Virus record (IMG/VR): IMGVR_UViG_3300037062_000058
Location: 1-42,383 of that record
Strand: one strand, 5' to 3'
DNA from: a virus
Length of the DNA stretch: 42,383 nucleotides
Shown: positions 2,554-29,800 of the stretch, one piece after another
How positions within the stretch are numbered: position 1 is the first letter of the stretch
Layout: each line of letters starts with the position of its first letter
Made by a program: the position numbers and the translations under genes
Notes under the pieces: generated by a model
Told to the model about the DNA's origin: nothing
What the model saw: only the letters and a program-made list of their open reading frames with translations
Database searches by the model: none

Positions 2554-5463
2554 ATGGCTATAGGACCTTTAGAAACCTTTGTATTTCCTGGCGTGTTCGC
2601 CCAGACATTTACAGAATCAGCAGGAGCGTCAGCAGCCGGGGATATTAGATACCCTGGTATTATTGGAGTTGGGTACGAACAAGTAAGAGTTTCTAATTTT
2701 GGTATGATTAGAGGCTCATCAGCTATTGCTGATAATCTTATTTTAGAAGAGCTTGTAACCGGTGTCGCAGTTTTAGATACAGATCCAGGTCCAGGTTGGA
2801 TAGGTGGCGCACAGGGTACCACGAATACATTTAGAGTAGCTAATTTCCCTATAGTAGTTGGTGACGGTAAAGGAACAGTAGCAACTCTCCCAGCAAATGT
2901 AATAGTTACCGTTGATGATGTCCCCGTAGCCGTTAATGCTGTTAATGGTCTTACAGGTGTAGTCACTTTAGTGGATATACCTTTAGAGACTTCCGCTGTT
3001 TATGCAAATTATTATTTCAAAAGAAGAGATACCTATATTGAAAACGAGGATCTCTCTTTTCAGGCTGATGGTCTTACAAACATTTTTAAAGTACGTAATG
3101 CCAGAATTGTAAAAGGTAATAATAGGGGGCAGTCAGCCACAGATTCTGACATAGGTTCTTCAATTGAAATTCTTTATAATCCAAATCCATTAGTCCCCGG
3201 TAAAGAATATTTAAAGACAGTACCAGTTATACAGGTTACTGTAGATAGTATCATTGCTACCATAGACCATCTTGATGGATCTCATGGAACTTTAATTTTA
3301 GATTCAATACCAGTAGGTGGAGCTAATGTAACAATTTCTTATTTTACGAATTTATGGCAAGATACATATGATATCCTTCCAGCTGCCCACGTCATTGATC
3401 TTATTAAAGTAGGTTTAAGTTCAGATACATCCGATTTTTCAATAGGTCAGGATTGTGTTCTAGCCGGAGAGAATAAATTACATTGGGGAACTTCTTATCA
3501 GCTCGCTCAAGGTATTTATACTTCAGGGTCTACTCCTTTCGTAAGTAATGTTGTAGCATCCTTAACAGATACTCGAGTTTTTGGTGTACAAGCTACCCCT
3601 TCTGTGCTAGGGTCAGATACGGACAAAAATTATATCTTATCATCTTACCCAGTTGATGGTACAGGTGTTGGCGAAGCCACTGAGGATCCCTCTAACATAA
3701 TAGCTTATGTAGGTACGGATTGGCCAACAGCTTATACTAGCGGCCCTGTTGTTGTTACAGAGATAAATGGAAATGTTATTACTCTTGAGGTACCCCCAGT
3801 TCAGACCGCAGGTGAGCTCGTTTTTGTAACATATTATGAGAGTAATATTTTGGATGATACTTGGACTCTTACTAACGAAGTTCAAGGCGGACCTGGTGTT
3901 GGGAAATATTTAGTAACTTCTCAACATAGTGGTACGGCATTAGATGTGACTCTTGCTGCTGGAGGAACAATAGCCCCAGTTTATGCAGGTTCAGGTATAT
4001 CAAATTTTAACGGATTAACCTCAACTGTTGAGGTTAATCCGTTAAAAGCAGTAGTTGAAACGGTTACTGTTACTTTTAATGGCACCGGTGGATTTACAGT
4101 TACATCCACTGGAAAAACAGGTACGGGGCTTGTTAATACAGGTTATCAAGGGCAAACCTATATAGATAGTATTACCGGATTCAGAGTAACCTTTGCTAAT
4201 ATCGCTTTTGCCCCTGTTTTAGGTAACACTGTTATTTATGATGTTGGAAATCCTTTAAATCCTACAATAAGCAAAGCTTGGATCTCAGCAAGCGCTAGTA
4301 TTGTAAAAGTAGTCCCTGGAATTAATCTTACGGTTGCATCAACTTCTGGTGGACTTTTTGATAGTACGGGTGATACTGTTATCCTTAATACTTTTAATAA
4401 GAGTGGAAATGAGCCCTCTGTTGGGGATAATTATTATGTCACATTTGATAAGGACAAGATTGATTATTCAACAAAGTATTATGTTGCAATGCGTGATGTT
4501 TATAGGGATTTCGGTCCTTTGGATATTACCAACAAAATTGTAGTAGGAGCTAATCTTGCTTTCTTAAATGGTGCTAGAGCAGTAGCTATCCAGCAGATCC
4601 TAAAAGAACCCGGTCTTCCGGATGCTTCAGTACAGTCTTATATCGATGGTATAGATGCTTTCGCTACTCCTCTTCCTAACGGAACAAGACCTTCGTTGAT
4701 TCAGCCTATGACAACGAATGCTGATGTAATAGCATACTTGAAATCAAGTAATGCTATTCAGAGTAGCATAACATACCGTAATGAAAGAACAAGTATCATT
4801 GGTTTTCCTTTTGGTACTACTCCTGATGCTGCTATAGCTAAATGTAAAGGTCTTGCTACTGAAAAAGTGACCCCAGTTTATCCAGAAGCTGCTGTTATAA
4901 GTATTACAGATGCTTTTGGAGCAGAAGTACAATATCTTGTGGATGGGTCTTTCATAGCAGTTGCTATGGCGGGATTAGATGTTTCACCGGCGTACGATAT
5001 AGCTACACCGCTTACTAACAAAACTATTGTTGGTTTTGATAGGTTATATCGTAGGTTGGATGAAGTTACTGCGGCTCTAGTGGCAAATGCTGGATGCACA
5101 ACATTAGATCAGGTAGGCAATTCAATTAGAATAAAGATGTATCTTACCTCTGATTTGAGCAATGCTTTTACAAGAGATCCTCGAATTGTTGAAGTAAAAC
5201 ATTTTGTTCAGCAGGGTATTAGAAGTAATCTTAACCAATATATTGGTCAAAAGAATTTGCCAACGGTTATTCCTCAGATTACAAGTTCAGTTAATTCTTA
5301 TTTTGCTACTCTTAAGAATACTAAGGTTATTGTAGATTTTAAGGGTATCCATGTTTATCAGGATGCTAATGATCCTTCAACTGTTGATGTCGAAGCTTTC
5401 TATAGCCCAGTATTTCCGTTGAACTGGATTATAGTTACACTTAACTTAAGGCAGTCAGTATAA
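2554..5463 (+). CDS. Contractile tail sheath protein
   Basis: The 969-residue product forms the outer tail tube that contracts to drive the inner tube through the host envelope. The start at ATG 2554 has AGGAGA 6-11 bases upstream. The N-terminal ~75 residues (PGVF, YPGIIGVGYEQV) match the sheath start pattern. Two inserted beta-modules follow at about 110-150 and 220-275, ending in ANYYF and ISYF strands, and more beta-rich insertion reaches to about 620. The conserved sheath core fills about 640-969, with ANLAFLNGARAVAIQQ, a FDRLYRRLDEVTAALVANAG helix, a TRDPRIVEVKHFVQQGIR segment and a terminal NWIIVTLNLR strand. It is longer than the T4 sheath (659 residues) because of the inserted domains, which would decorate the tail surface. 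A perfect 21-bp inverted repeat lies inside the gene at 4005-4047. Neighbouring tube and tape measure support the call. Confidence 0.93.
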   Translation: MAIGPLETFVFPGVFAQTFTESAGASAAGDIRYPGIIGVGYEQVRVSNFGMIRGSSAIADNLILEELVTGVAVLDTDPGPGWIGGAQGTTNTFRVANFPIVVGDGKGTVATLPANVIVTVDDVPVAVNAVNGLTGVVTLVDIPLETSAVYANYYFKRRDTYIENEDLSFQADGLTNIFKVRNARIVKGNNRGQSATDSDIGSSIEILYNPNPLVPGKEYLKTVPVIQVTVDSIIATIDHLDGSHGTLILDSIPVGGANVTISYFTNLWQDTYDILPAAHVIDLIKVGLSSDTSDFSIGQDCVLAGENKLHWGTSYQLAQGIYTSGSTPFVSNVVASLTDTRVFGVQATPSVLGSDTDKNYILSSYPVDGTGVGEATEDPSNIIAYVGTDWPTAYTSGPVVVTEINGNVITLEVPPVQTAGELVFVTYYESNILDDTWTLTNEVQGGPGVGKYLVTSQHSGTALDVTLAAGGTIAPVYAGSGISNFNGLTSTVEVNPLKAVVETVTVTFNGTGGFTVTSTGKTGTGLVNTGYQGQTYIDSITGFRVTFANIAFAPVLGNTVIYDVGNPLNPTISKAWISASASIVKVVPGINLTVASTSGGLFDSTGDTVILNTFNKSGNEPSVGDNYYVTFDKDKIDYSTKYYVAMRDVYRDFGPLDITNKIVVGANLAFLNGARAVAIQQILKEPGLPDASVQSYIDGIDAFATPLPNGTRPSLIQPMTTNADVIAYLKSSNAIQSSITYRNERTSIIGFPFGTTPDAAIAKCKGLATEKVTPVYPEAAVISITDAFGAEVQYLVDGSFIAVAMAGLDVSPAYDIATPLTNKTIVGFDRLYRRLDEVTAALVANAGCTTLDQVGNSIRIKMYLTSDLSNAFTRDPRIVEVKHFVQQGIRSNLNQYIGQKNLPTVIPQITSSVNSYFATLKNTKVIVDFKGIHVYQDANDPSTVDVEAFYSPVFPLNWIIVTLNLRQSV
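4005..4047. repeat. Perfect 21-bp inverted repeat with 1-nt centre inside the sheath gene
   Basis: Bases 4005-4025 and 4027-4047 are exact reverse complements around a single T at 4026. The left arm reads TTTTAACGGATTAACC followed by TCAAC. In the reading frame it encodes the NFNGLTSTVEVNPLKA stretch of the sheath insertion. It would form an extremely stable cruciform or mRNA hairpin. It is not followed by a T-run, so it does not look like an ordinary terminator. Confidence 0.95.
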
Positions 5464-5569: not shown

Positions 5570-6736
5570 ATGAATAAGCTGGCTTTGGCAGACAGATTCG
5601 AAGGCTATTCTAAAATTTTCGCAAGTGATAGTAACATGGGGATAGATCTTAAGGCAATGGCGGATACTCTTAGAGAGATGCCTGAGGAAAAATTCGCCAA
5701 AGTTATCAATGCAAATTTTGATATTGGGATTGGAAAAGCTGCCCCAATGATGCATCAAAGAACTCCTTTAAGTGACAGACCTCATAATATTGGTGGTGGC
5801 CCAAAAGCAAAGATGATTCCTGAACAGGGCCTTTCAGATATTGCTAAGAAGCATCAAATCCCTGCGGAAAAGATGAAGAGTATTTATCAGGATATTATGG
5901 AAGAAGCGTCTGAAGAAGTAGAAGCTTCAGAATCTGTTGATGCAAATTTTGACATTGGGATTGGGAAAGCTGCTCCAATGATGCATCAGAGAACTCCGCA
6001 GAGTGAAAGACCGTATAATGTTGGTGGGCAACCAAAAGCGAAGATGATTCCTGAAAAGGGTCTTGCAGATATTGCTAAGAAGCATCAGATTCCTGCTGAA
6101 AAGATGAAAAGTATTTATCAAGATATTATGGAAGAAGCATCTGAAGAAGTGGAAGCTTGTATGGATAAAAAAGAAGCAAATATAGAAGCTTGGACAAAGA
6201 GTGCTTCAGACCTTGTAGCTCAGAATTTAGTCCGTGATATCCTTGGTATGGAAAAGTCTATCTGCTGTGATACAAAGCGTCATCAGACTCCTAAACAGAT
6301 GCCTGATGCTAAGAAGAAGCAAGAGACAAAAGGAGCTGTTAATAGAGAAGAAGACACTGGTGCTGCATTAAAGCCAGAGCAGGTTCCGAATCTTAGCGTT
6401 AAGCTTGATTCTGATATGTTTAAGAAGTCAAAGGGTCCTGTAAGAAAAGAAGCTGGTGCAGCTGTAGAAGAGACGCCTGATGCAAAAGCTGCTGAGCCCC
6501 AGGAAGTTAAAGATGCTGGAAAAGTAAAGGATCCTGCAAAAGAAATAGCTAAAATGCAGGAAGATAAAAAGAAAGAAGAACTCAAAGAAAAGTCAAGACC
6601 TGAAGTAAAAAAAGAAGAGACTTCTGAAGTTGAAGCCAATACTCTTGTAGCTGAAGGTATCGAGTTTGATAATGTTATGCAGGAAGTAGATGCTAACGAT
6701 GAGGATGTCAAGAAATTAAGTGCATTATTTGAATAA
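5570..6736 (+). CDS. Lysine/glutamate-rich protein with a 77-residue internal duplication; unknown
   Basis: The product has 388 residues; ATG 5570 follows GAGGAG. I recognise no family. Residues 1-47 form a helical leader. Residues 48-124 and 125-197 are two near-identical copies of a unit with ANFDIGIGKAAPMMHQRTP, then KAKMIPE, then DIAKKHQIPAEKMKSIYQ and an acidic EEASEEVEA end. The remainder is a low-complexity K/E/A-rich stretch (about 270-350) that is probably unfolded. Units are bordered by a recurring short motif V-(D/E)-A-(N/S/C): SVDAN, EVEAC, EVEAN at 353-357 and EVDAN at 372-376. The gene lies between sheath and tube, where a highly expressed accessory virion protein or assembly factor would be expected. 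The short linkers could be protease sites or spacers; that is inference. Confidence 0.6.
   Translation: MNKLALADRFEGYSKIFASDSNMGIDLKAMADTLREMPEEKFAKVINANFDIGIGKAAPMMHQRTPLSDRPHNIGGGPKAKMIPEQGLSDIAKKHQIPAEKMKSIYQDIMEEASEEVEASESVDANFDIGIGKAAPMMHQRTPQSERPYNVGGQPKAKMIPEKGLADIAKKHQIPAEKMKSIYQDIMEEASEEVEACMDKKEANIEAWTKSASDLVAQNLVRDILGMEKSICCDTKRHQTPKQMPDAKKKQETKGAVNREEDTGAALKPEQVPNLSVKLDSDMFKKSKGPVRKEAGAAVEETPDAKAAEPQEVKDAGKVKDPAKEIAKMQEDKKKEELKEKSRPEVKKEETSEVEANTLVAEGIEFDNVMQEVDANDEDVKKLSALFE
5711..6157 (+). repeat. 231-bp tandem duplication within the gene at 5570
   Basis: Copy 1 spans 5711-5941 and copy 2 about 5942-6157, with most differences at silent or conservative positions. The encoded units differ at only about nine of some seventy aligned residues, which points to a fairly recent duplication that is under selection. 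Confidence 0.9.
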
Positions 6737-9313: not shown

Positions 9314-12300
9314 ATGGCTAACGACGATCTAAAAAGTAGTGTTGAGAAACTTAAAAATGCTCGTTCTCAAGTTGAGCAGGAGCGTATACTCAATGACTTG
9401 TATAAGGCTAGAGAAAAAAGCATTGGGGATATAAATAAAGCTACTTCAAAATCCAGGTCTATATCTTCGGAACAATTACAGAATACTGAAGAAGAATTAA
9501 AGTCTTTAAGTAAAAAAATAGATAGATATAAGGTTTTAAATTCTTTAGGGAAAACTGATGCAAAAACAAAAGAAAAGCAGCGGAAATATGTTCAATCTCA
9601 TCGAGCATCAGAAGTAGCAGAATATGAAGACATAATCAAGTTAACTAAAAAGCAACAACTTGCAGATAAAGCACGTTTAAGAAATCAAATCAAATATGTT
9701 GAGAAGAGATTCGAAGCAGAGAAAAAAACTATAGCTGCTGAAACGGCATTGGAACAAAAACAGAATAAAAAGAGAGAAGAATACGAAAAGAAATTTGGTT
9801 TTGGTGCTCCACGTAGAATAGAAGAAAAAAGAGAACATATAGGAAAAGGCGGTGGAAGAGTTACAGGTAATATAGCGGGAGACTTAGATGATGCTTTAAG
9901 TAGTGTTTTTAAGCCTTTTAAGAATAAATCATTAAACCCTTTAAAATGGCTTAAAGGGGGATCTGATGCTGCTGAGGATATAGAAAAATCTAGTCAAAGT
10001 ATGGCTGAATGGGCTGAAGCTTTATCAGGGTCAAAAGGAGCAGCTGGGTTAGGAGATGAAAAAGATATTCAAAAAGGTGCAGCTGATATTTTAGGTAATG
10101 CTATGAAGGGTGCCGGTAAGAATAAATCTTTAACAAAAGGAAGAACAGGAAAAGAGATTCAAAAAGGTGGTGCTGATATTATAGGGGAAGGGATAAAAGG
10201 TTCAGGTAAAAATAAATCTTTGGTAAAAGGTAAACTTGAAAAAGATATTCAAGAAGGTACTGTTGGCATTATAGGAAATGCTTCGAAAGGTGCTGGTTTA
10301 GGTAAAGGAAAAGGGATATTAGGAAAAGTTGGTGTTGGGGGTGATGTTGGGGATGCTGGCGCTTCTTTCACTAAAGCTACTAAGGGATTAGGGATGATGG
10401 TTACAGTTGTTAAAGCACTTTCAACGGCTTTAGGTATGTTAAGTAAAATGAGCTGGATTTTTGCAGTAATAGGGGCTATTTCAGCTTTAGTTTCCGCTGG
10501 TATAGAATTAGACAAATTTTTAAAAGGTTTAAATAAAACATTTCTTGAGATGGCTGGGCCAACAGTAGGTTTAAAAGACATTAAAGGGGATATGAAGAAT
10601 TTTAATGATGCTATATTCAGTTTAAATAGAAACTTAAAATTAGGTCTTAAAGCGGAAGATATCCAGGGTATGTTTAAAGCTGTAGCTGGTGTAGGATTAC
10701 CTGCTAAAGCTTTTTCCGGTTTAGCCGGTGGATATGACAATGCTATAAAGATGGTTAGAAAAACAAATATAGATTTGGGGATATCTTTTGAGGATGCAGG
10801 GAAAGTTATATCGGAACAGATGATGGATCTTACTACTACATTTGATGATTCCAGGAAATCTCTTCAATCTTTAGGATTTGAAGCTACAAAGGCTGGGGTT
10901 ACTTCTAATAAATTTTATTCAGCTATACAGAATTCTGTGAGTGCTTTATCCTTTCTTGGCAATTATACAAAACAGGCATCAGGTGCTTTAAATATGTTCA
11001 TGAAAGAAAGCACACTAAGTTTTAAGGATGCCGCACAAGCAGCCAACGATTATATGCAGGCTTTTAATAAGATGGATTGGAAGCAGTTGCAAATAACTTT
11101 TGGTATGGCTGGTAAAGGTTTAGTAGAGATAATGCAAAAATCGGCAAAAGAGATGTGGGGAGCTCCTTTAAAGGAAAATGAGAAAAAATTAGCTGATTTA
11201 ACAAATCAATTGGAGGCAGCTGAGAAAGCAGGAGATAAAGATAAACAAGGCGAATTGAAAAATTCGATTAATAACTTAGAAAAAGAAATGAAGAGTGCTA
11301 ATGTTAGACTTTCAGGTTTTAATAAAGCGGTAGAAGATTATCAAAAATCTGGAGCTGTTGGAGAGTTACAACAGTATCGAGATCTTTTAACAGGGAATTT
11401 AGCTCAAGTAATGGGTCAAATAGAAGATAATACTGATCCTGGTAATTATACTGCAAAATTAGTAGCATTACAAAAAGGTTTAAATATAGGTCCAGAGTTA
11501 CTAAGAGCTGTAGAGGATGCCAAGAGTACTATAGCTAGTAATTATAATGACTTGTCAAAAACTTTTGAAGGAAAATTAGGTGATGCTATTGGTGGTAATG
11601 AGCAACAAATAGAATATACAAAGAAATTAGTTGAGTACGGAAAAGCTAACTCATCATCTCCTGAAAAATTATCAGATTTAAAAGATGCTTTTAGGAAGCA
11701 AGGTCAGGACTCTAAAATGAGCGACCTTGAATCTGAAAAATATGCCAAAAATATGATTGATATGATATCATCAGGGGATTTGTCCTCAGATGATATTATT
11801 AGTGCTTTAGACGCCCTTAAGAAGGGTAATGATACAATTTCTAAGCAAGAATCTACTAAGTTTTTAAAACCTGGTAAAATAAAAACGAGACAGTTAGTTG
11901 ATGAATCCATGAAAGCTAAAAAGGTTGATGAGGAAGGTTATGATACATTAAATGATAATGAATTAGAAATGATAAAGAGTACAACTTCTGCGGCTGACTA
12001 TCTGGATATAGCTAAAGATTCCCTTAAATATATGGCAGCGGATAAACTTGATCAATCAGGTATAATGAAGGAGATGCTAAAAGGTGTTTTAGGTATAGGG
12101 GGTGATGTATCCTTATTAGCTTCAGATAAACGAGATAAAATGGAAGGTGCCAAAGGAGCAGAATCAAAAACAACATATGCAATGGGTGGGTATGGAGACA
12201 CCCCTTATCAAAAAATATCCGCAGCAACAGCAGGAGTTGAAAAATTAAAAGCTGATGCTGAACTCAAAGATCTTAATCAAAAAAAAGATTTATCAGATAA

Positions 12301-12901
12301 GGAAAAAGAAAAGAAGGATCAACTTTTAAAAAATATAGATCAGTATAACTCTATATTGAAATCAAGTATAAAAAATCTCATGAGCAATCATTTAAATGCT
12401 ACAGAGGCTCAAAGGGCTCAAGAAGAACTTATAAATAATGAAAGCATAAATATCTCTGAAAAGGCTAAAAAAGATAATGAATATAAATCCAAAGTTCATA
12501 AAAATATTGATTTACCAACAGCACCTCAAGCCCCAGGAACAGTACCGGAGACCGCCAAAACACCAGGGCCACCGCCATCAGTAAAAGATTTCAAAGCAAC
12601 TCAAGCAGGTTTAGCATTATTGGATAAAGGGGATATAGCTTTTAATCCATCTATTGGTATTGCTGGTAAATCAGGTGCGTTTGTTAATGAAGTTTTAAGT
12701 AAGATGGGGCTATTTGATGCTCCTATGGCTAAAGGAGCTGAAGGAAGTAATGCCAGCTATCAAATAAATTTAGGTGGTATCCAAGTAAATGGAAATATAG
12801 AAGATCCTGTTGTTGTAAGGCAGGCAGGGCAAAAACTTACACAGATGGTAGAGCAAGTGATATTAAAACATGAACGTGAAAAGATGCTTGCAAAGGTATA
12901 A
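9314..12901 (+). CDS. Tape measure protein
   Basis: The 1195-residue protein sets tail length and probably passes into the host envelope at injection. ATG 9314 follows AGGA. Residues 1-165 are almost pure charged coiled coil. Residues 250-340 are Gly/Lys-rich with three copies of a 30-residue unit. Hydrophobic helices at about 359-400 (MMVTVVKALSTALGML, then WIFAVIGAISALVSAGI) are the membrane-type segments typical of tape measures. More helices and a K/E coiled coil (about 620-690) follow. The C-terminus has the INLGGIQVNGNIEDP strand motif and a final helix ending KHEREKMLAKV, common in this family. At about 0.15 nm per residue the tail would be near 180 nm, a rule-of-thumb estimate. No lytic domain is seen inside it. 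Confidence 0.88.
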   Translation: MANDDLKSSVEKLKNARSQVEQERILNDLYKAREKSIGDINKATSKSRSISSEQLQNTEEELKSLSKKIDRYKVLNSLGKTDAKTKEKQRKYVQSHRASEVAEYEDIIKLTKKQQLADKARLRNQIKYVEKRFEAEKKTIAAETALEQKQNKKREEYEKKFGFGAPRRIEEKREHIGKGGGRVTGNIAGDLDDALSSVFKPFKNKSLNPLKWLKGGSDAAEDIEKSSQSMAEWAEALSGSKGAAGLGDEKDIQKGAADILGNAMKGAGKNKSLTKGRTGKEIQKGGADIIGEGIKGSGKNKSLVKGKLEKDIQEGTVGIIGNASKGAGLGKGKGILGKVGVGGDVGDAGASFTKATKGLGMMVTVVKALSTALGMLSKMSWIFAVIGAISALVSAGIELDKFLKGLNKTFLEMAGPTVGLKDIKGDMKNFNDAIFSLNRNLKLGLKAEDIQGMFKAVAGVGLPAKAFSGLAGGYDNAIKMVRKTNIDLGISFEDAGKVISEQMMDLTTTFDDSRKSLQSLGFEATKAGVTSNKFYSAIQNSVSALSFLGNYTKQASGALNMFMKESTLSFKDAAQAANDYMQAFNKMDWKQLQITFGMAGKGLVEIMQKSAKEMWGAPLKENEKKLADLTNQLEAAEKAGDKDKQGELKNSINNLEKEMKSANVRLSGFNKAVEDYQKSGAVGELQQYRDLLTGNLAQVMGQIEDNTDPGNYTAKLVALQKGLNIGPELLRAVEDAKSTIASNYNDLSKTFEGKLGDAIGGNEQQIEYTKKLVEYGKANSSSPEKLSDLKDAFRKQGQDSKMSDLESEKYAKNMIDMISSGDLSSDDIISALDALKKGNDTISKQESTKFLKPGKIKTRQLVDESMKAKKVDEEGYDTLNDNELEMIKSTTSAADYLDIAKDSLKYMAADKLDQSGIMKEMLKGVLGIGGDVSLLASDKRDKMEGAKGAESKTTYAMGGYGDTPYQKISAATAGVEKLKADAELKDLNQKKDLSDKEKEKKDQLLKNIDQYNSILKSSIKNLMSNHLNATEAQRAQEELINNESINISEKAKKDNEYKSKVHKNIDLPTAPQAPGTVPETAKTPGPPPSVKDFKATQAGLALLDKGDIAFNPSIGIAGKSGAFVNEVLSKMGLFDAPMAKGAEGSNASYQINLGGIQVNGNIEDPVVVRQAGQKLTQMVEQVILKHEREKMLAKV
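10061..10330 (+). repeat. Three 90-bp direct repeats in the tape measure gene
   Basis: Copies at 10061-10150, 10151-10240 and 10241 to about 10330 encode a unit beginning K-(D/E)-IQ-(K/E)-G, followed by an (A/G)D-I-(L/I)-G stretch and GKNKSL. The first two copies are closest; the third diverges at its end into a GLGKGKG run. Copy-number change here would alter the tape measure by 30 residues per unit. Confidence 0.8.
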
Positions 12902-13927: not shown

Positions 13928-15319
13928 ATGATAGATTCTGAAAAAAGAAATTATACTAATTTTTCTTATTTTAATATGATAACCTCTCATCAAGGTGGGG
14001 GTTTTGTTGTAAATCCAGGTGGTATTATTGATACTTCCTTAGATCAAACAGCGATAGCTTCAGTCCCAGGTTTAAAACAGTTCTCGATATCGATATATAA
14101 CCAACAGACTGATAGTGATGTTATTAGTTTGATTCTTATGGTTAATCCGTCTGATGTAACTTTTGGGCAAACGACTATTTCTGGTGATTCATATACGAGA
14201 GAAGGTTGGGTATCTACTTTATGGGGTAGAGGTCAACCCACTATTTTAGCAAACGGGTCTACAGCAGCTTTTTATGTTGGAGGCAGCGGTCTTACAGCGT
14301 TAAGTAGAAGGTCGTCTTTATCATTTAGAAATTTTATATCAATTCTTGCCATATTTAAAAATAATGGTTATTACTTTTTAAGTGGGCCTGAAAATAAAGA
14401 CTTATTCGATGCTGTAGGAGTTAATAGAGGTAGGGTTATTAGTGTAATGGATTTGATAAAAATAAGCTATGATGACGGGGATTATATAGGTTCTTTTAAC
14501 TCTTTTACTATAGATGAAACAGCAGAGGCACCCTTTCGTTTTAATTTTAACTTCGAATTCATAATATCAGGGTTAAGAGGAGAACCTGTTAGTGGACATT
14601 TAAAAATGTGTGGACCTACTGGTTGTAATACAGTAAAAAGTATTATAGTCCAAACAGCTGGTAGCTATACCTATGATGAGACAGTGTCTTTAGATACTAC
14701 TCAACAAGATATTGTTTTTCAAAAGCCTGTTGCTTCTGATACTATAGGGACTAGTTGGAATATAGGGAATGGTTCGAGTTTGGGGACTTCTTCAGTTAAA
14801 GGATATAAAGGAAATTTAAATAAATTGAGTAATAATGTAAATACATATAACGATCTAATAACTAATGCTATTTCTAATTATGGTACTTCAGTTCCACCAA
14901 ATCTTGTTAAAGCTATAATGATGTGGGAATCTGGCGGGAATCCAAATGCGGTTAATCCAAATAAGAATGTTTATGGAGTAGTTACTTCCACGGATTATGG
15001 TTTAATGCAAGTTAATAGTAAGAATATTGACAATTTTTCTACTGCTATAGGAAGACCCTTGAATTTCTTAGATCCTAAGGATAACATAGATGGAGCGGTA
15101 TCTTATATAAATACTCTTTGGACAAAATATGGTGGGGATGTTAATAAAATAGTGGCGGCATACAATGCTGGGCCAACATCTGTTGATAATGCACTTAATT
15201 ATCCTAATAGTCATTCGATACCTGCAAGTACGGCTAATGTGTATGTTCCTAATGTTTTAAATAATTATAATTATTTAAATAAGGTAAATACTTCTAAAGT
15301 AACACAGCAGATTATTTAA
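13928..15319 (+). CDS. Baseplate hub protein fused to a lytic transglycosylase domain
   Basis: The 463-residue product starts two bases after the previous stop without a clear ribosome-binding site. Residues ~40-225 repeat the baseplate domain of the preceding gene (VNPSDVTFGQ, REGWVSTLWGRG, SYDDGDYIGSFNSFTID, PFRFNFNFEF). A linker follows, then a soluble-lytic-transglycosylase (SLT) domain at about 312-450: VKAIMMWESGGNPNAV with the catalytic glutamate at residue 334, DYGLMQVN, and a VAAYNAGP motif near the end. Such domains cut the glycan strands of peptidoglycan between MurNAc and GlcNAc, letting the tube cross the wall. Position just above the hub and spike agrees with a tail-tip lysin. 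The enzyme call is strong. Confidence 0.87.
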   Translation: MIDSEKRNYTNFSYFNMITSHQGGGFVVNPGGIIDTSLDQTAIASVPGLKQFSISIYNQQTDSDVISLILMVNPSDVTFGQTTISGDSYTREGWVSTLWGRGQPTILANGSTAAFYVGGSGLTALSRRSSLSFRNFISILAIFKNNGYYFLSGPENKDLFDAVGVNRGRVISVMDLIKISYDDGDYIGSFNSFTIDETAEAPFRFNFNFEFIISGLRGEPVSGHLKMCGPTGCNTVKSIIVQTAGSYTYDETVSLDTTQQDIVFQKPVASDTIGTSWNIGNGSSLGTSSVKGYKGNLNKLSNNVNTYNDLITNAISNYGTSVPPNLVKAIMMWESGGNPNAVNPNKNVYGVVTSTDYGLMQVNSKNIDNFSTAIGRPLNFLDPKDNIDGAVSYINTLWTKYGGDVNKIVAAYNAGPTSVDNALNYPNSHSIPASTANVYVPNVLNNYNYLNKVNTSKVTQQII

Positions 15320-20827: not shown

Positions 20828-23800
20828 ATGAACCTTGATTTTTTTAAGCTAAAATCAATATTTTTAGAAGATACTGTTGTAAGGAATCCGAGAGTAGGGT
20901 CTAAGAACAGGCCAACATCACGTACGATCGATGTCGGCTGCACGGGCATTAATTCTACTGATGATATTTATACAGGTGAGATTGGGGTAAATTCAGAATA
21001 TCTTATACAAGGTTCAGTAAAAGGTACTGTAATTAAAGGTTCCTCCGGTACTTTTACTCTCAACAGTAATAAAATAAAAAATATTCAAAATGTTTATGGA
21101 TTACTTCCTGGAGAGACTGTTAATTGGGGTGATTCTTTACGTGCCGATGGGCATGATGAGTTTTACCCTGTTACAGGGATTTCAGATGATTTTTCGACAC
21201 TTTGGTTACAAGACAATAATACAACAGTAACTGGAGTTAATGATTTTGAAGTAAGGAAAATAAGATTAGACAGCACCCATTTTGAATATATCAAAAATGA
21301 TGAAGGCGATATTAAATTCTTCTATGATAAAAATAATCGTGATTGGAGATATACAGGGATACAGGGATTCACTGGGCCTTTGATTGCCGAGTCAGGCAAG
21401 GATGCGTTCATAGAAGGGGACCCTGTTACTCTTCAATTTTATCCGTCTTATACTTCTACAGCTCCAGATGTTACTTCCATTGACACAACTTCTACTGATC
21501 CTAAAGCTCCATATGGCCAAAAAGTGTTGGAGAATAAGCTTATCTCGGATACTTCAGATTTAATTTTAAATCCTATACCATATCCGGATGATAATCAAAA
21601 TTTCAGACTTTATTGGGGCCCAGTAGGGGATGTATCCCTAAAGACAAAAGATATTGATTATACTATTAATTATACGATGGACCCAGATTATACCTCTGCT
21701 AAATTACCATATAGTCAGAGGACAGTAGCTTATCTTAAATTCCTTAATGAGCTTAAAAATACCGTCCAAGTAAGTAGCATAGGATTAGACTTCCAAGGAG
21801 TGTTTAATATCCACGAGGATCCTAGCACTTCTGCCACTAAATTGGCCAGGGGCGTAATAAACATATTTCCTAACAGCAAAGCTTTAACGATAGCTGGAGA
21901 TACTCAGGAATATACAGGTGAAATAATCAGAGTAGGGCAAAAGGTACTTGATAAATATTTTGATTACAACATCGAGTATAACAACGGTATTATAAATTTT
22001 ATTAAGCATTCGAATTTAGAATTGGATGTATCCAGCGTACTATATAATCAAAATTTAATTTGGGATGGAGTAAGCGTAGTAAAGGGTGTTGGTCTTACCG
22101 GCTTAAAAACTCAGGATCCCGCTAACTTAGTTATACCTTATGGTATAGCTGGATTAACAGGGATCAATGTAGACGTTTATTTTGAGGATATAGATGATAA
22201 TGATTTTAAAGAAGGTGTGGATTATACTTTTGAATATCAAAGTGGTGCTATAAAATTAACCAAACCTCTAAAATCAGGTGAATGTGCTCTTGTATCTTAT
22301 TTTGTTGAAGGTGAGGATGTAGTTAATGAAGTTTTAAATCTTAAAACATTACGTACACAGAAAAACCCCATTATTGAATCTTCTATCACTATAAAAAAGA
22401 CTTATTCTGATTCAAGCTCTTCCAGTACAGGAATAAAAATATTGATAGAGGGTGTAGATTATAAAGTTTTTTATTTGTCTGGTACTATAGTTTTATTGAA
22501 TCCTTCTGTAACTGAAAATTTAAGTTCTCTGCAAGTAAGTTACACGCCTTTCTCACAAGTACAGTGTATCTTACAGCCTGTAGCAAGTGACCCAAACAAT
22601 TATTTAATTACTATCGTTGATGATAAGCTGAAAGTTTCCGATCCTTTTAATCTAAAATTTTCAGTAATTAATCCTATAATTTCTACCCCCCAAGTAGATC
22701 CATTTGGAGAAAATCCAACAACATATGCTAATTCAGTAATACCAAAAAGCCTACTCTCACTTAAAGCAGAAGGGGAGCCAGGTTATGGTTTAAGTAATCT
22801 AACTCCTGATGAGATGATAGCTATAGGTATAACAGGTCTTCATTATATGGGGTTGGATGTAAAATTAGGTCAGACTCCAGAAGAGTTTTATGCTATAGGT
22901 CTTACCGGGATTATTGAATTGGGTATTGCCCCAGACATGAAGCAGATATATGACGTTACAAATTATACGTATAATGATGTGTCAAAAATAGTAGCTTTAG
23001 ACCCTTCCAAAAATGTTGGTAAGCCTAGGCCTGATCTTAATGATATTATCTTAGCCACATATAGCTATGTGGGGGATGTTCTTCCATATACTCCTGTACA
23101 GATTATCTTTCCTGTTTTTAATCAAGATGATAATAGTATCCTGATAGAAGGATTTGATAAAACAGACACTATTTATCCTGGTATGATTTTAAGGATAGAT
23201 AATTTTGATCCTCAAAAGTATTATTATTTTAAAGTTGTTAATGTCGATTATGATGGGATGAATACTACCATAACTTTTGCGAGTCCTTTCCCTGAGGATA
23301 TTCGTAACCCTTCTTTTTATATTTTTGATGATATACTTAACTGGTATCCACTACCAGCAGGAACTTCTATAGATTCTACGGTTACCGTAGGGGCAGATAC
23401 ACTTACTTTGAGTGGGGATCCTTTAGAAGCTAAAGATCTTTTAAGGCCTCAAACTTTAATGAGCATCGGCGGGACGGACATATATGAGGTTTTGAGTACT
23501 TCTGCAATAGATAGCAACACTCTGCAAGTTAAAATATTTCCTAATCTACAAAAAGAATATCCAACTGGGATAATGATATCAGATCCGGTGTATCAACAAG
23601 GTGCTACTGATATTGTTTCTAAACATCCAATTATAACAGATCCTCCCCACCCTGCTTTTACAATTAGGTACGTAGCCCCTGTTGATGCTATATACGGGAT
23701 GGCTACTATTTACATAGATGGCGAGAAAATTGTTTTTGTTGAAATAGTAGATAATTCGACAGCCGCTTATAATTTTTATTTCAGGGATTATGCCAGTATA

Positions 23801-26800
23801 CGGGATTTAGCGGATGCCATCGTAAATACCGTTTCTCATATTACTCCCAGACCACATAGCCCATTTACTTTAATATCTGAGAATGGTGATATAGAGCAAT
23901 ATTATATAGGGGCCGGTTTTTGGAGTTCAAATTTAGTACTCCCTTTTGATCATGATCAACCAATAATAATACCCAATGAAGGGTATCTGGTAACAATCAA
24001 GCAGGAAGTTTTTAGATACATTCTTGTAAAAGCTTATAATAATACTTCTAATTTCCTTGTAGAAAAAAAAGATAGGAAGGATTATTTCTCTGCTGGTAAT
24101 TTACTGGCCTTTATAAGTAAGTCCTCGGGGGATTTAAGTTTCTTTGAAGTTTCTGGTGTTAGTACAGTACCTAATAAAACTACTCCTAAAACAGCAGACA
24201 CGCAGGTATCACTTAATGATTCCTTCAGAGAGAATATGATAGCTCCATATATGTACAAATATGACGCTATTAATTGGGTTGAGGTCACTTCTCCATTTTT
24301 TAATATTGATACTGCCGGTTCTAAGATATCTTTATCTTCTGATCTACCATTGTTCAAACAAAATAGTTTTGTAAGAATTAATGGCGGCTTAGTCTATCAG
24401 ATACAAAATGTTTCAGTGTATGATACCGTAACTACGCTAACATTTAGTCCTGGATTAAGCAGCTCTATTAATAAGATAACTTCTTTTAAAGTATCTGATA
24501 TGCCTATTTATTTAAACAGTGTATCTCCTCAGCCTTCTATTTTTATTAATTATAAAGTATATGAAGGGCGTTCTGGAGAGACTTCAGTAACCGTTGATGA
24601 TAAGAACATAACTATTACTGAAAAGTTGGCTGGGTCTTTAGAATCTACAGCACAAATAGAATTGGCAAGATATAGCAATTTAAATCAGATCGCCGGTGCT
24701 TTAAATAGACTACAACTGACGGTGCCAGGATATAATCCGTTATCCGTAGACACATCAGCTTATAAGGATGTATTCTCTGCTGGTGGAAATTCTCTTCTTT
24801 TAGTTCCTATGACACAAGCAGTGTCATTACCAGCAAGTATTTCTGTTTCCAAGAAGATTTTTGAAATTGGTTATACTTCCCCAGATAGTAGTACAGATTA
24901 TAAGATAACGATTCCATCAGATGGGTCCAATACTATAAGTCTTAGTGAGTGGAAAGGATCTGATAAACCTGGGACCCTGAGAGTTAACACAGTTAATTAT
25001 AGCAATAGATTAATTTCTGAAGTTATAAGTGACATTTCAAATTTAGGCTCTATTGTTTCAGGACATAAACCTTGGTCTGTTAGCAATACAAATTATGACG
25101 ATTATTTCGCAAAGAATAAGCCAGGATATTATACAATAATACCTTTCCCGGGATCGGACAAGGATAGCTTGCCATATTTTGTTCAGGCTATAGAAAATCC
25201 TAAATTTTGGTATCAAGTTGGGGTTTTGAACAGAAATGTTTTAGTTCAAGGTACTGATTATACAATAGATGGGACTCAAATAGCATTAACTATCCCTATT
25301 GCTGTATCTGAGAGATATGAGGTAAGTTATTTAGGTATTGACGATCTTGCTGAGTATGGGGGTAAGAGCATAACCTGTTCTTGTCGTTATTTTTATAGCA
25401 TACCTGCCGGATATCAGGTTAATGTGTACATGGATTATCTGAATCCGGATCAATACTACGTACAGAAATTAACTGAAAGAAAATTCCTTGAGATAGTTAC
25501 ACAGCCCCAGATTAAGGATCTACTGCAACAGGCTGGGAATAGTGTTGGAATGGGCAATGACAGTGGAAGCGATAATTCTGCAAACAATTGGGATGGTGGT
25601 TTAGTAGATCTTTATTATTATTTAAAAGATGAAAAAATAAAGAGTCAGCTTTATATAAAATTATTTCAGTGGTATAAGCAGAGGCTTAGAAATTTTGCTG
25701 CTGAAGCCCAGCTTATAATGGGAGTAAAATACGGACATTGTAATTTTTATGGTATAAAAGGAAACGGTCAATATACCTTAGAAGATTCCTATGTCGAGGA
25801 TAATAACTATACATTAACAAAGATATCTGATTTAGCTCAGATACATAATGGTTTCTCAAAGTTTTTTCCGATAGGTTATGATGGGAATGCCCCTCAACCT
25901 TATGCAAGATTTGGAAATATATATCAATCTTATAATGAGGTTTTTTGCTACAACATCCGATATATAGATGAATCTGGTAAGATTCTTAATACAGAAGGTA
26001 GAGTTATATCAACTAATCCATATTGGTCGAATGTTGTAGATAAACAGACTACATTTTCTAATTTGGATTTTGATATACTTCCTTATGATCAGGAATCATC
26101 TTTTGTTTCAAGAGGTGTTACAGGGTTATACACTATTCCTTATAATCAGGAAGATAAACATTTAAGAGTTTCTGACAGTAACTATAAATTTTTAGAGAGG
26201 ATTTCCACAGGAGATCAGCTTCAGATTTTAGATTCTAAAAATACTTATAATATAGCAAGTATTTTAAGCAATGCTTCAGCACAGCCTGTTATAATAACAT
26301 ACAGTGATGGGACCCCGCTGACATATGATGGGACTATGAAGTCCCCTGGTACTTTACCAGTTTATGGAGAATATCTACAAAATTATTCCTATGTTTTGAG
26401 TACAGATACTGTTCCTCCTACAACTAATCCAACTAATCCTTTGGGTTATCCAGTAGGTACTCCAGTTGTAAGAAATACTAGTAGTAATATCATAACTGGA
26501 TTAGGGTATAGACTCGTTAACCCTTCCTCCCCTTATGATATTCTTGTTTTAGAAAATGGAAAATATTTTACTGATTCTGGGATACGCACTTTTACAGTAC
26601 AAAGATCAGTAGTTAATAACGTTACCACATGGAACTATGTAAGTAATAAAGCTAATTGGACACTACAAGATTTGGAAGCTAACTTACCGAAAGATGGTCT
26701 AAACATTATTGTAACTAGAAATAGTAGCAAGGATTTTCCGGTTATATTTCCTGCTTGGGATGATGAGTTTAATTTAGGTACAAAAGTTGTAGGCTTGCGA

Positions 26801-29800
26801 ATAATAAATCAGAAGACAAATACAGACATTATTAAAAAGCCTTTTTCATTTACGGATCTATTTGGATTAGATGATGAAGATAAATTTTTTACTGTTTATG
26901 AAGGCACCTATGATGAGTTAACCGGGCTATATAAAATCCTTAATACAGTAAATATTAATCTTAAATATCTTACTTTTTTCGAGGAAAGAAGAGTCAATCA
27001 AGTCTTAGATGCTATTAAATACAATTTAACTGGTACTAAGTATCCGCTGCCTTTTCCCCCTTACATATTAAAATTGTCTAACATCTACAAGAAAAAGGAT
27101 AATTTGGGGACTGAAAAATTCTTCTATGTAGATTTTGATAAGTATTATGATGCAACCGCAAATAACGGATATAATGAGAGCATAATTTTTAGATCTCGTA
27201 ACAGGAATAGCTGGGTACAATACGCGGTTAATGAGGATAATGATTTTGTCGACCCAGAATATGGTTTTAGTGACGCAGACGTATATAAGAATTTTTATGA
27301 CCCAAACAATTTGTATATCAAGCTTATTATTGAGAGACAGAGTTGGCTTACAGAACTTAATGTTATTAAAGACATATTTGATACAAACGACAAGTTAGAT
27401 AGAGCTTATACATTTTCTAATGGAGTTATTCAAGCTCAGGCTGAATTCTTGGATTATTTGAATCAAATTTCATGTGGAGATAATAGTACCCCATTACCCT
27501 CGTGCATAAAATATCGTATAGAATCTTATTCAGAGATCCTAAATTTTTTGTTGGATCAATCTGATACTACCCACCAATATTTAGTAGATAACACTTCCGG
27601 CCCTTTATATAGGACTATGATGGAAGATACTAACATATCTAAGCCTATGAATGATTCTTATACGCAGGCTCAAACTGCATTTACTAAATATACAAATTTT
27701 CAAAACGAATGTAATCTTTATTATGACTTAAATAGTTTTTATTATAATAAATGGCAGACAGAATATGTTAAGTGGGTTTTAAGCTTAGAACAAGGCTTAA
27801 TATATCAGAAAGATGCTAAGAATATCTTTCAAGCATCCTTAGATAATTATATTGATATTGGCTTCAAGACTTTTCCAGCAATAAAACTAAGTGTAATAGA
27901 CCAGGGTGTTAAACCGGCTTTTACAATTTCTGTGGCAAAATATGTAGTTACCTATAATATGTTGGCTACTGCGGATACTGCTCAGGATGAATATGATGAT
28001 GCAACTTTAATAATACAGTATAAGATATCTGATGTTAAAGACAATCAGGAAATACCCTTTAATTTAAGAAGTTACTCAACTCTTCAAAATCTTGTGGACA
28101 GTATAAATTCTACATGTGTACATCCTGTTTCAAATATTAAGGTATTGTCAGCATCATGTGTGTTTGATTACTATCCATATAGAAATTATTCTACAAAGTG
28201 GATTTTAAGAACTTATCGTGCCACCCCAAGTAATGACTCTAATGGCCCTGATACTGTGGGTGGAGATGGGTGGACAGCTTTGAGTCCTGATCCAACTATT
28301 GATGATCGTATATATGTGTCTAATGTCTTAGATCATAGGAATTATGACTCCAGAGTATTCTTTATGAGTAGGACTGACATACATAAGGATATCTTAACTA
28401 TAAACTCAGAAAAAATTATAGCATTCCCGTATTATGTTGATACGCGGGGTAATGATATTTTAAGTAAAATGGGTCCTATACCTGTTGCAGGCAGATGGGC
28501 TACTGAGGATGCCAGTTCTACAGATTCAGTAGATTATACTAAAGAACTTGATGTTCTGAGTATAAAGCCTGGAGTAGATAATGCTACTATTATCGATTAT
28601 GAATTTTTAGATTATGTACAAGGCGAGGAACAGATTTCTGGAGAGCAGACACCTCGAAATCCTACCTATGAAACAAGTCCTGAGACTTTAGCAAGCATAG
28701 GGTATAACCCTCAAACTTTTACATTATCAGAGAATACTCCAATTATAGTAGAGGATGCTGTTACAGGTACTTCATCAGTATTAGATGCAAATTTACAAGC
28801 ATTAAATACTTTAGTTGCTAATGTCCCTACAATTGCTCCTACGACTAAAGTTATTAGGGATTTGAGAATAATATTAAGAATAAAAAATCAGGTGAATCCT
28901 GATAAATATCAAGACGTTTCATTTGTTTTTAGCTTAAGGCAATACCCTACTATTAATGATTTAAATAATGCTTTAAATAACAATCATTATGCTTCAGATG
29001 GTAATGGGAATATCATTTTAGATGAAAATAATAATGCTGCGGTAGCTTCAATCGGTAAAAGAGCTATATACTTTAATTCATCCTTGATAGGCTCAGAAGA
29101 TCTACAAGGAAGAATGAAAACAGTAGATATCACTACGGAATATAATCAGCAATTGATCTATGTAGCAACATATGAATATTGGCAGATAAATGATGAAAGG
29201 GTGTATAACACTTTAACAAACTCGTGGAGTGGGGATATAACTACTATTAAGATAATAGAGCCCATTAATAGTAGCTATAACGTAGGGTGGAAATTACGGA
29301 AGCAAAACGCTATAAATGGTATGCAGATAACATTCAGAGTAACACCAAGAACTTATAGCCCCTATTATGACTATAGATTTAAAATATATGATCCAAAGAA
29401 AGCAAGAGATACTATCTTTTTAAATGAGAAAAAGGATACTTTAGCTTTTGATCTCTATGGATGGGATGATGATGCTCAATATAAAATTAAAAATAATGTC
29501 TTATACTTGAGAAGTGCAACAATAACAGATCCGGTCCAGATACTCTTATATAAGACAAGTAATTTAGATACAAGCATAGATCATCCCGAGGAAAAATTGC
29601 AGCTTATAGATGTTATTAGATCGATTAATAATAATGCTACCTGCAATAATTATTTCTTTGCAAATTTAAGATTTGGCAGAGAATATAACTCAGACTATGA
29701 TTATACTTATTTACCTGATACCCAGATATGGGCAGGAGGGGATGGGTGGGTATCCATTCAGGATACTACTACCTCTATTATTCCAACTAAAGTAGCTTTG

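Follow-up and report, generated by a model that had tools for sequence, protein, structure and literature searches.

A perfect palindrome in the tail sheath gene of a contractile-tailed phage as the likely footprint of a short-range template switch

Template switching can create perfect hairpins in a single step (Monttinen and Loytynoja 2022, PMC8794818). In great apes, most events belong to the switch types 1-4-3-2 and 3-2-1-4, which yield single inverted repeats (Walker et al. 2021, PMC7954356), with copied lengths that have a median of 12 and a maximum of 128 (PMC7954356). Coding genes of yeast have been altered by template switching (PMC8604942), and the same error class is documented in E. 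coli reporters (PMC7202029). Here, a perfect palindrome is described which is located inside the sheath gene of a contractile-tailed phage and which is very probably the footprint of a single, recent and short-range template switch during the replication or repair of phage DNA.

The palindrome and its genomic surroundings

The analysed stretch of DNA (the window, 42,383 nucleotides) derives from a contractile-tailed phage, of which it covers 42.4 kb, including the sheath gene and many long ORFs. The match of the sheath ORF to the PHROG tail sheath family spans residues 641-963, and tblastn additionally matched proteins annotated as tail sheath in, among others, Tunturiibacter phage Tunturi_5 and Bacillus phage G. 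The features of the locus are as follows.

2554-5463, plus strand: contractile-tail sheath gene, ORF of 969 amino acids that holds the palindrome (PHROG 2839 tail sheath, E 9.6e-19; tblastn)
4005-4025, plus strand: left arm, 21 nt, apparently an inserted reverse-complement copy that adds seven codons (about residues 485-491, FNGLTST); absent from 15 relatives and exact reverse complement of 4027-4047
4026, plus strand: axis base T, putative third base of an ancestral AAT codon and outside the insertion (AAT GTT CAA in relative L011 and AAT GTA CAG in relative L012, against AA(21 nt)T GTT GAG in the window)
4027-4047, plus strand: right arm, 21 nt, apparently ancestral coding sequence (VEVNPLK) and putative template of the copy; aligns with V-(E/Q)-(V/I)-(N/D)-P-(L/I)-x in the relatives
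4047-4071, plus strand: imperfect hairpin adjoining the 3' side of the palindrome, 11 pairs with G-T allowed, only three of them G-C

The perfect 43-base palindrome reported by the initial annotation is confirmed by the sequence: positions 4005-4047, inside the sheath ORF, read TTTTAACGGATTAACCTCAAC T GTTGAGGTTAATCCGTTAAAA, with two 21-nt arms that are 100% complementary and separated by a spacer of 1 nt. For arms of at least 21 nt with a spacer of at most 8 nt, 5e-7 occurrences are expected per window of the same composition, and the longest arm in 100 dinucleotide shuffles was 12. Within about 0.63 Mb, comprising the window and related phages, the 21-nt arm is the longest close-spaced perfect inverted repeat, the runner-up arm being 15. 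This second-longest arm of the census belongs to a 30-bp perfect palindrome (AAAGGGGGAGGAACTAGTTCCTCCCCCTTT) at positions 3835-3864 of a related phage (L018). The unchanged palindrome is also carried by two further IMG/VR contigs, which match the window at 100% identity along 10.5 and 18.1 kb. The three palindrome-carrying contigs, identical over their overlaps, may represent one population. The imperfect hairpin at 4047-4071 is probably incidental, with no consistent structure at this place in the relatives.

Other repeats were observed elsewhere in the window. A perfect 24-bp A+T palindrome (TTTAAATAATTATAATTATTTAAA) lies at 15256-15279, near the 3' end of ORF 13928-15319, and a near-perfect 16-nt inverted repeat with a 4-nt loop (AAAAAAGGATATTCCT/AGGAGTATCCTTTTTT; 312-347), which looks like an ordinary bidirectional terminator, is found upstream of ORF 401-1864. 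Directly downstream of the sheath gene, ORF 5570-6736 contains a 219-bp direct repeat (5709-5927 and 5940-6158, 88% identical), which encodes a repeated ANFDIGIGKAAPMMHQRTP... block and is an older tandem duplication. The 1,195-aa ORF 9314-12901, probably the tape-measure protein by its size and position, exhibits internal repeats at 10057-10297 with a 90-bp period and 76-80% identity. A 3,594-aa ORF (20828-31612) occupies about a quarter of the window and is part of a tail and baseplate-like gene block.

Related sheath genes and the origin of the left arm

With the window protein as sole query, two distant sheath relatives and the two identical contigs were retrieved, while alignment queries found more. 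Fifteen relatives with about 50-73% protein identity were compared at the site, comprising 13 sequences (L011 to L023), L052 and L024/L061, the frame-shifted match of which was read by tblastn. L060 (40% identity), which has a different three-residue filler at the site, was left out of this count. The nearest relative, L011, exhibits 73% protein and 72% DNA identity to the window, followed by L012 with 67% protein identity.

In the codon alignment the left arm is missing from all 15 relatives, which have seven codons fewer at this place (L052 eight fewer). Where the relatives read ...N-V-x-V-N/D-P-L..., the window reads N-(FNGLTST)-V-E-V-N-P-L-K, and the right-arm residues V-E-V-N-P-L-K align in all 15 of them. 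The codons at the site are exemplified by the following sequences.

Window: TCA AAT TTT AAC GGA TTA ACC TCA ACT GTT GAG GTT AAT CCG TTA AAA
L011: GTT AAT (gap of 7 codons) GTT CAA GTA GAT CCA ATA GTA
L012: GTG AAT (gap) GTA CAG ATA GAT CCT TTG ACA
L021: CCA AAC (gap) TTC CAA GTC AAT CCG CTT AAG

L011 and L012 are collinear with the window on both sides of the site and show no further adjoining gaps (...Y-A-G-S-G-x-x-N / V-Q-x-D-P...). On the basis of this alignment, the right arm appears to be the ancestral, conserved part of the palindrome and the left arm its new part. The comparison with related phages that the initial annotation had suggested thus reveals, at the sequence level, genes encoding similar residues, including a VNPLK-type segment, with no inverted repeat at the site. 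The encoded segment had been considered unremarkable, but seven of its residues, those of the left arm, are missing from the aligned relatives.

In the tree, the window groups with L011 and L012 (support 89/91) and all other relatives fall outside, so that the gain of the left arm maps to the window's own branch. The end branch of the window is long (0.27). No change was found in any of the 42 arm bases, which puts the number of changes per site at no more than 0.07 (95% bound), and 53% of the 4-fold sites differ from L011. Taken together with the long end branch, this lack of drift suggests that the insertion is recent and occurred late on the window's branch. The perfection of the arms is thereby explicable without maintenance by selection or conversion. 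The initial annotation had offered selection or a recent event as causes of the symmetry; the latter is favoured by the undrifted arms and by the absence of the left arm from every relative, whereas no conserved stem was found that would speak for the former.

In searches for closer sequences, no sibling that lacks the palindrome exceeded 73% protein identity, and the exact ancestral junction is absent from IMG/VR. No prophage or bacterial relatives could be confirmed, and GenBank phages yielded no DNA match and only protein matches of 24-34%, which are too distant for a DNA comparison.

Removal of positions 4005-4025 from the window yields AAATGTTGAGGTTAATCCGTTAAAAGCA and restores the ancestral layout, as the resulting codons AAT GTT GAG GTT AAT CCG are arranged like AAT GTT CAA GTA GAT CCA in L011. 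Over its full length (21/21), the insertion is the reverse complement of the ancestral 21-nt segment beginning one base downstream of it, a match which a random 21-nt insertion would show by chance with a probability of about 4^-21. The event was therefore an inverted duplication, in which a reverse-complement copy was inserted, and not an inversion that left a scar, as had also been considered.

The ancestor would have read approximately ...GGT ATA TCA AAT GTT GAG GTT AAT CCG TTA AAA GCA.... It is proposed that, next to the T in the AAT codon, the polymerase left its template, copied 21 nt in reverse from the neighbouring complementary strand (or its own nascent strand) and returned to the original template at almost the same base. 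Such a switch would place a 21-nt reverse-complement insertion beside its source and thereby produce a perfect palindrome in one step. Projected onto the ancestor, the order of the switch points is 1-4-3-2 in the four-point model. A single event would thus explain why the insertion has this length, why the arms match perfectly around a 1-nt axis and why the reading frame is kept, and the RNA hairpin would be a by-product. As the insertion comprises 21 nt, the frame would have been retained and seven residues (FNGLTST) added to a variable, low-confidence loop of the extra domain of the sheath, where the addition was presumably tolerated. A poor AlphaFold model (pLDDT 59.7, pTM 0.29) weakly hints that the new residues, about 485-491, are located in a loop (476-490) which is followed by a short strand (492-495). 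The length of the domain varies among the relatives in parts near the insertion site, so that tolerance of a small in-frame insertion is not surprising.

The enzymology, the neutrality and the strand involved are proposals for this template-switch event. Around the same axis, the reconstructed ancestor already contains a weak quasi-palindrome (TCAA-ATG-TTGA) with four of five inner pairs, a value that is equalled by 2.4% of the axes in the window; this is a mild hint that the quasi-palindrome seeded the switch. In a snap-back variant, the nascent 3' TTGA would anneal to TCAA and the right segment would then be copied, which would need one extra central substitution. An interstrand variant would need no extra change, with microhomology at the switch points of at most 1 nt. 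The data favour neither variant, and either may have provided this step. As the nearest relative is only 73% (protein) and 72% (DNA) identical, intermediate steps before the present palindrome are conceivable.

Possible roles and other origins of the palindrome

In the transcript, the palindrome would form a very stable hairpin (-35 kcal/mol, z -7.8 for a 96-nt segment), the strongest one of the sheath gene. A hairpin of this length is in principle sufficient for RNase III. These properties would fit a selected RNA element, i.e., an RNase III site or a pause or attenuation hairpin that tunes sheath against downstream expression, as suggested by the initial annotation. However, an inverted repeat is present at the site in none of the 15 relatives, although their flanking residues are similar, and the RNA z values at the same place are scattered from -3.9 to +1.1 and belong to unrelated structures. 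When the 21 nt are removed from the window, its own value becomes +1.0. As the stem is missing from the relatives and disappears with the insertion, a regulatory origin of the palindrome is not supported by the sequences. Among the 15 relatives no stem conservation with compensatory changes was observed, and Rfam gave only sub-threshold, miRNA-like chance matches. Moreover, a selected RNA would allow G-U pairs and a loop, whereas perfect pairing up to a 1-nt axis fits a copying event. Altogether, a selected RNA element is a very unlikely explanation.

An intrinsic terminator for the sheath operon can be ruled out, as the sense strand lacks a U-tract after the palindrome, where the sequence is GCAGTAGT. 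The terminator and promoter scan revealed no sense-strand terminator at the palindrome, which scored on the antisense strand only (6 G-C pairs and TTTGATATAC).

A different combination would be that the template switch made the hairpin and that the lineage now uses it for mRNA processing or translation pausing in the sheath gene, or uses the seven residues on the virion surface. This appears very improbable. If true, a hairpin would have been gained by one mutation and put to use afterwards.

It is also very unlikely that the palindrome is an assembly or amplification artefact in the form of a fold-back chimera. The three records do not differ in any overlap and may stem from a common sample, and artificial palindromes are a known product of whole-genome amplification (PMC6218980). 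Nevertheless, the palindrome occurs at the same base in three separately deposited contigs of differing length and extent. In fold-back chimeras, in addition, the original sequence is normally not resumed after 21 nt, whereas here it continues with the reading frame kept.

That a mobile or selfish palindromic element was inserted, comparable to the in-frame palindromic elements of Rickettsia, seems extremely unlikely. This reading would agree with a palindromic insertion being found in frame within a protein gene, but only the left arm is new, while the right arm is ancestral gene sequence, which means that no whole palindrome was inserted. Dispersed copies are lacking, too: neither the 42-kb window nor 16 related records (about 1.2 Mb) contain a further copy of the arm (17 nt, at most 2 mismatches), and the full 21-mer arm has no other occurrence in IMG/VR. 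As no other copies were found, the palindrome is not considered a mobile palindromic element, and it differs from the Rickettsia type both in its lack of dispersed copies and in its inserted unit. Just as remote is a site for protein binding or recombination, such as an operator, a resolvase site or a packaging site, or a functional DNA cruciform, which the dyad symmetry might suggest but which is hard to reconcile with an unconserved single copy inside a structural gene with a left arm that is new in one lineage.

Comparison with known systems

The palindrome in the sheath gene adds a clean case to a mutation type that is already known. It represents a natural one-step, in-frame inverted duplication by which a structural protein of a phage gained seven residues and its gene a near-ideal hairpin. 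A striking palindrome within a gene thus need not imply regulation, and a codon-by-codon comparison of relatives resolves such cases. A systematic scan for such footprints across phage genes could reveal the frequency of these errors of phage polymerases.

The locus shares with the four-point template switch (Loytynoja and Goldman; PMC7954356) that the reverse complement of a neighbouring segment is inserted in one step and yields a single perfect inverted repeat, the length of which is within the reported range. The new segment matches ancestral sequence close by in reverse complement, the outgroups lack it (at the moderate resolution given by a nearest relative with 73% protein identity) and the sequence resumes collinearly. 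Unlike in the described cases, the event is found in a structural gene of a tailed phage, and its direction is derived from relatives with at most 73% protein identity instead of near-identical genomes. Quasipalindrome-associated switches in bacteria and phages (Ripley 1982 model, cited in PMC7954356; E. coli lacZ, PMC7202029) belong to the same class of polymerase error. The classic events perfect an existing quasi-palindrome by small changes, whereas here only about four paired bases preceded the addition of an entire 21-nt arm.

De novo hairpins (PMC8794818) likewise obtain a perfect stem by a single mutation, but were studied in RNA genes, while the present one lies in a protein-coding region and is without a conserved role. 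Perfect inverted repeats inside translated genes are also present in the mitochondria of Nematomorpha (PMC6649704). There, they are numerous and both arms encode conserved protein, in contrast to the isolated palindrome of the sheath gene, of which one arm is a new insertion. The palindromic elements of Rickettsia, as far as they are mentioned in the same source (PMC6649704), are similarly palindromic, in frame and inside genes; they are, however, dispersed repeats, whereas the sheath gene contains one copy, of which one arm was inserted.
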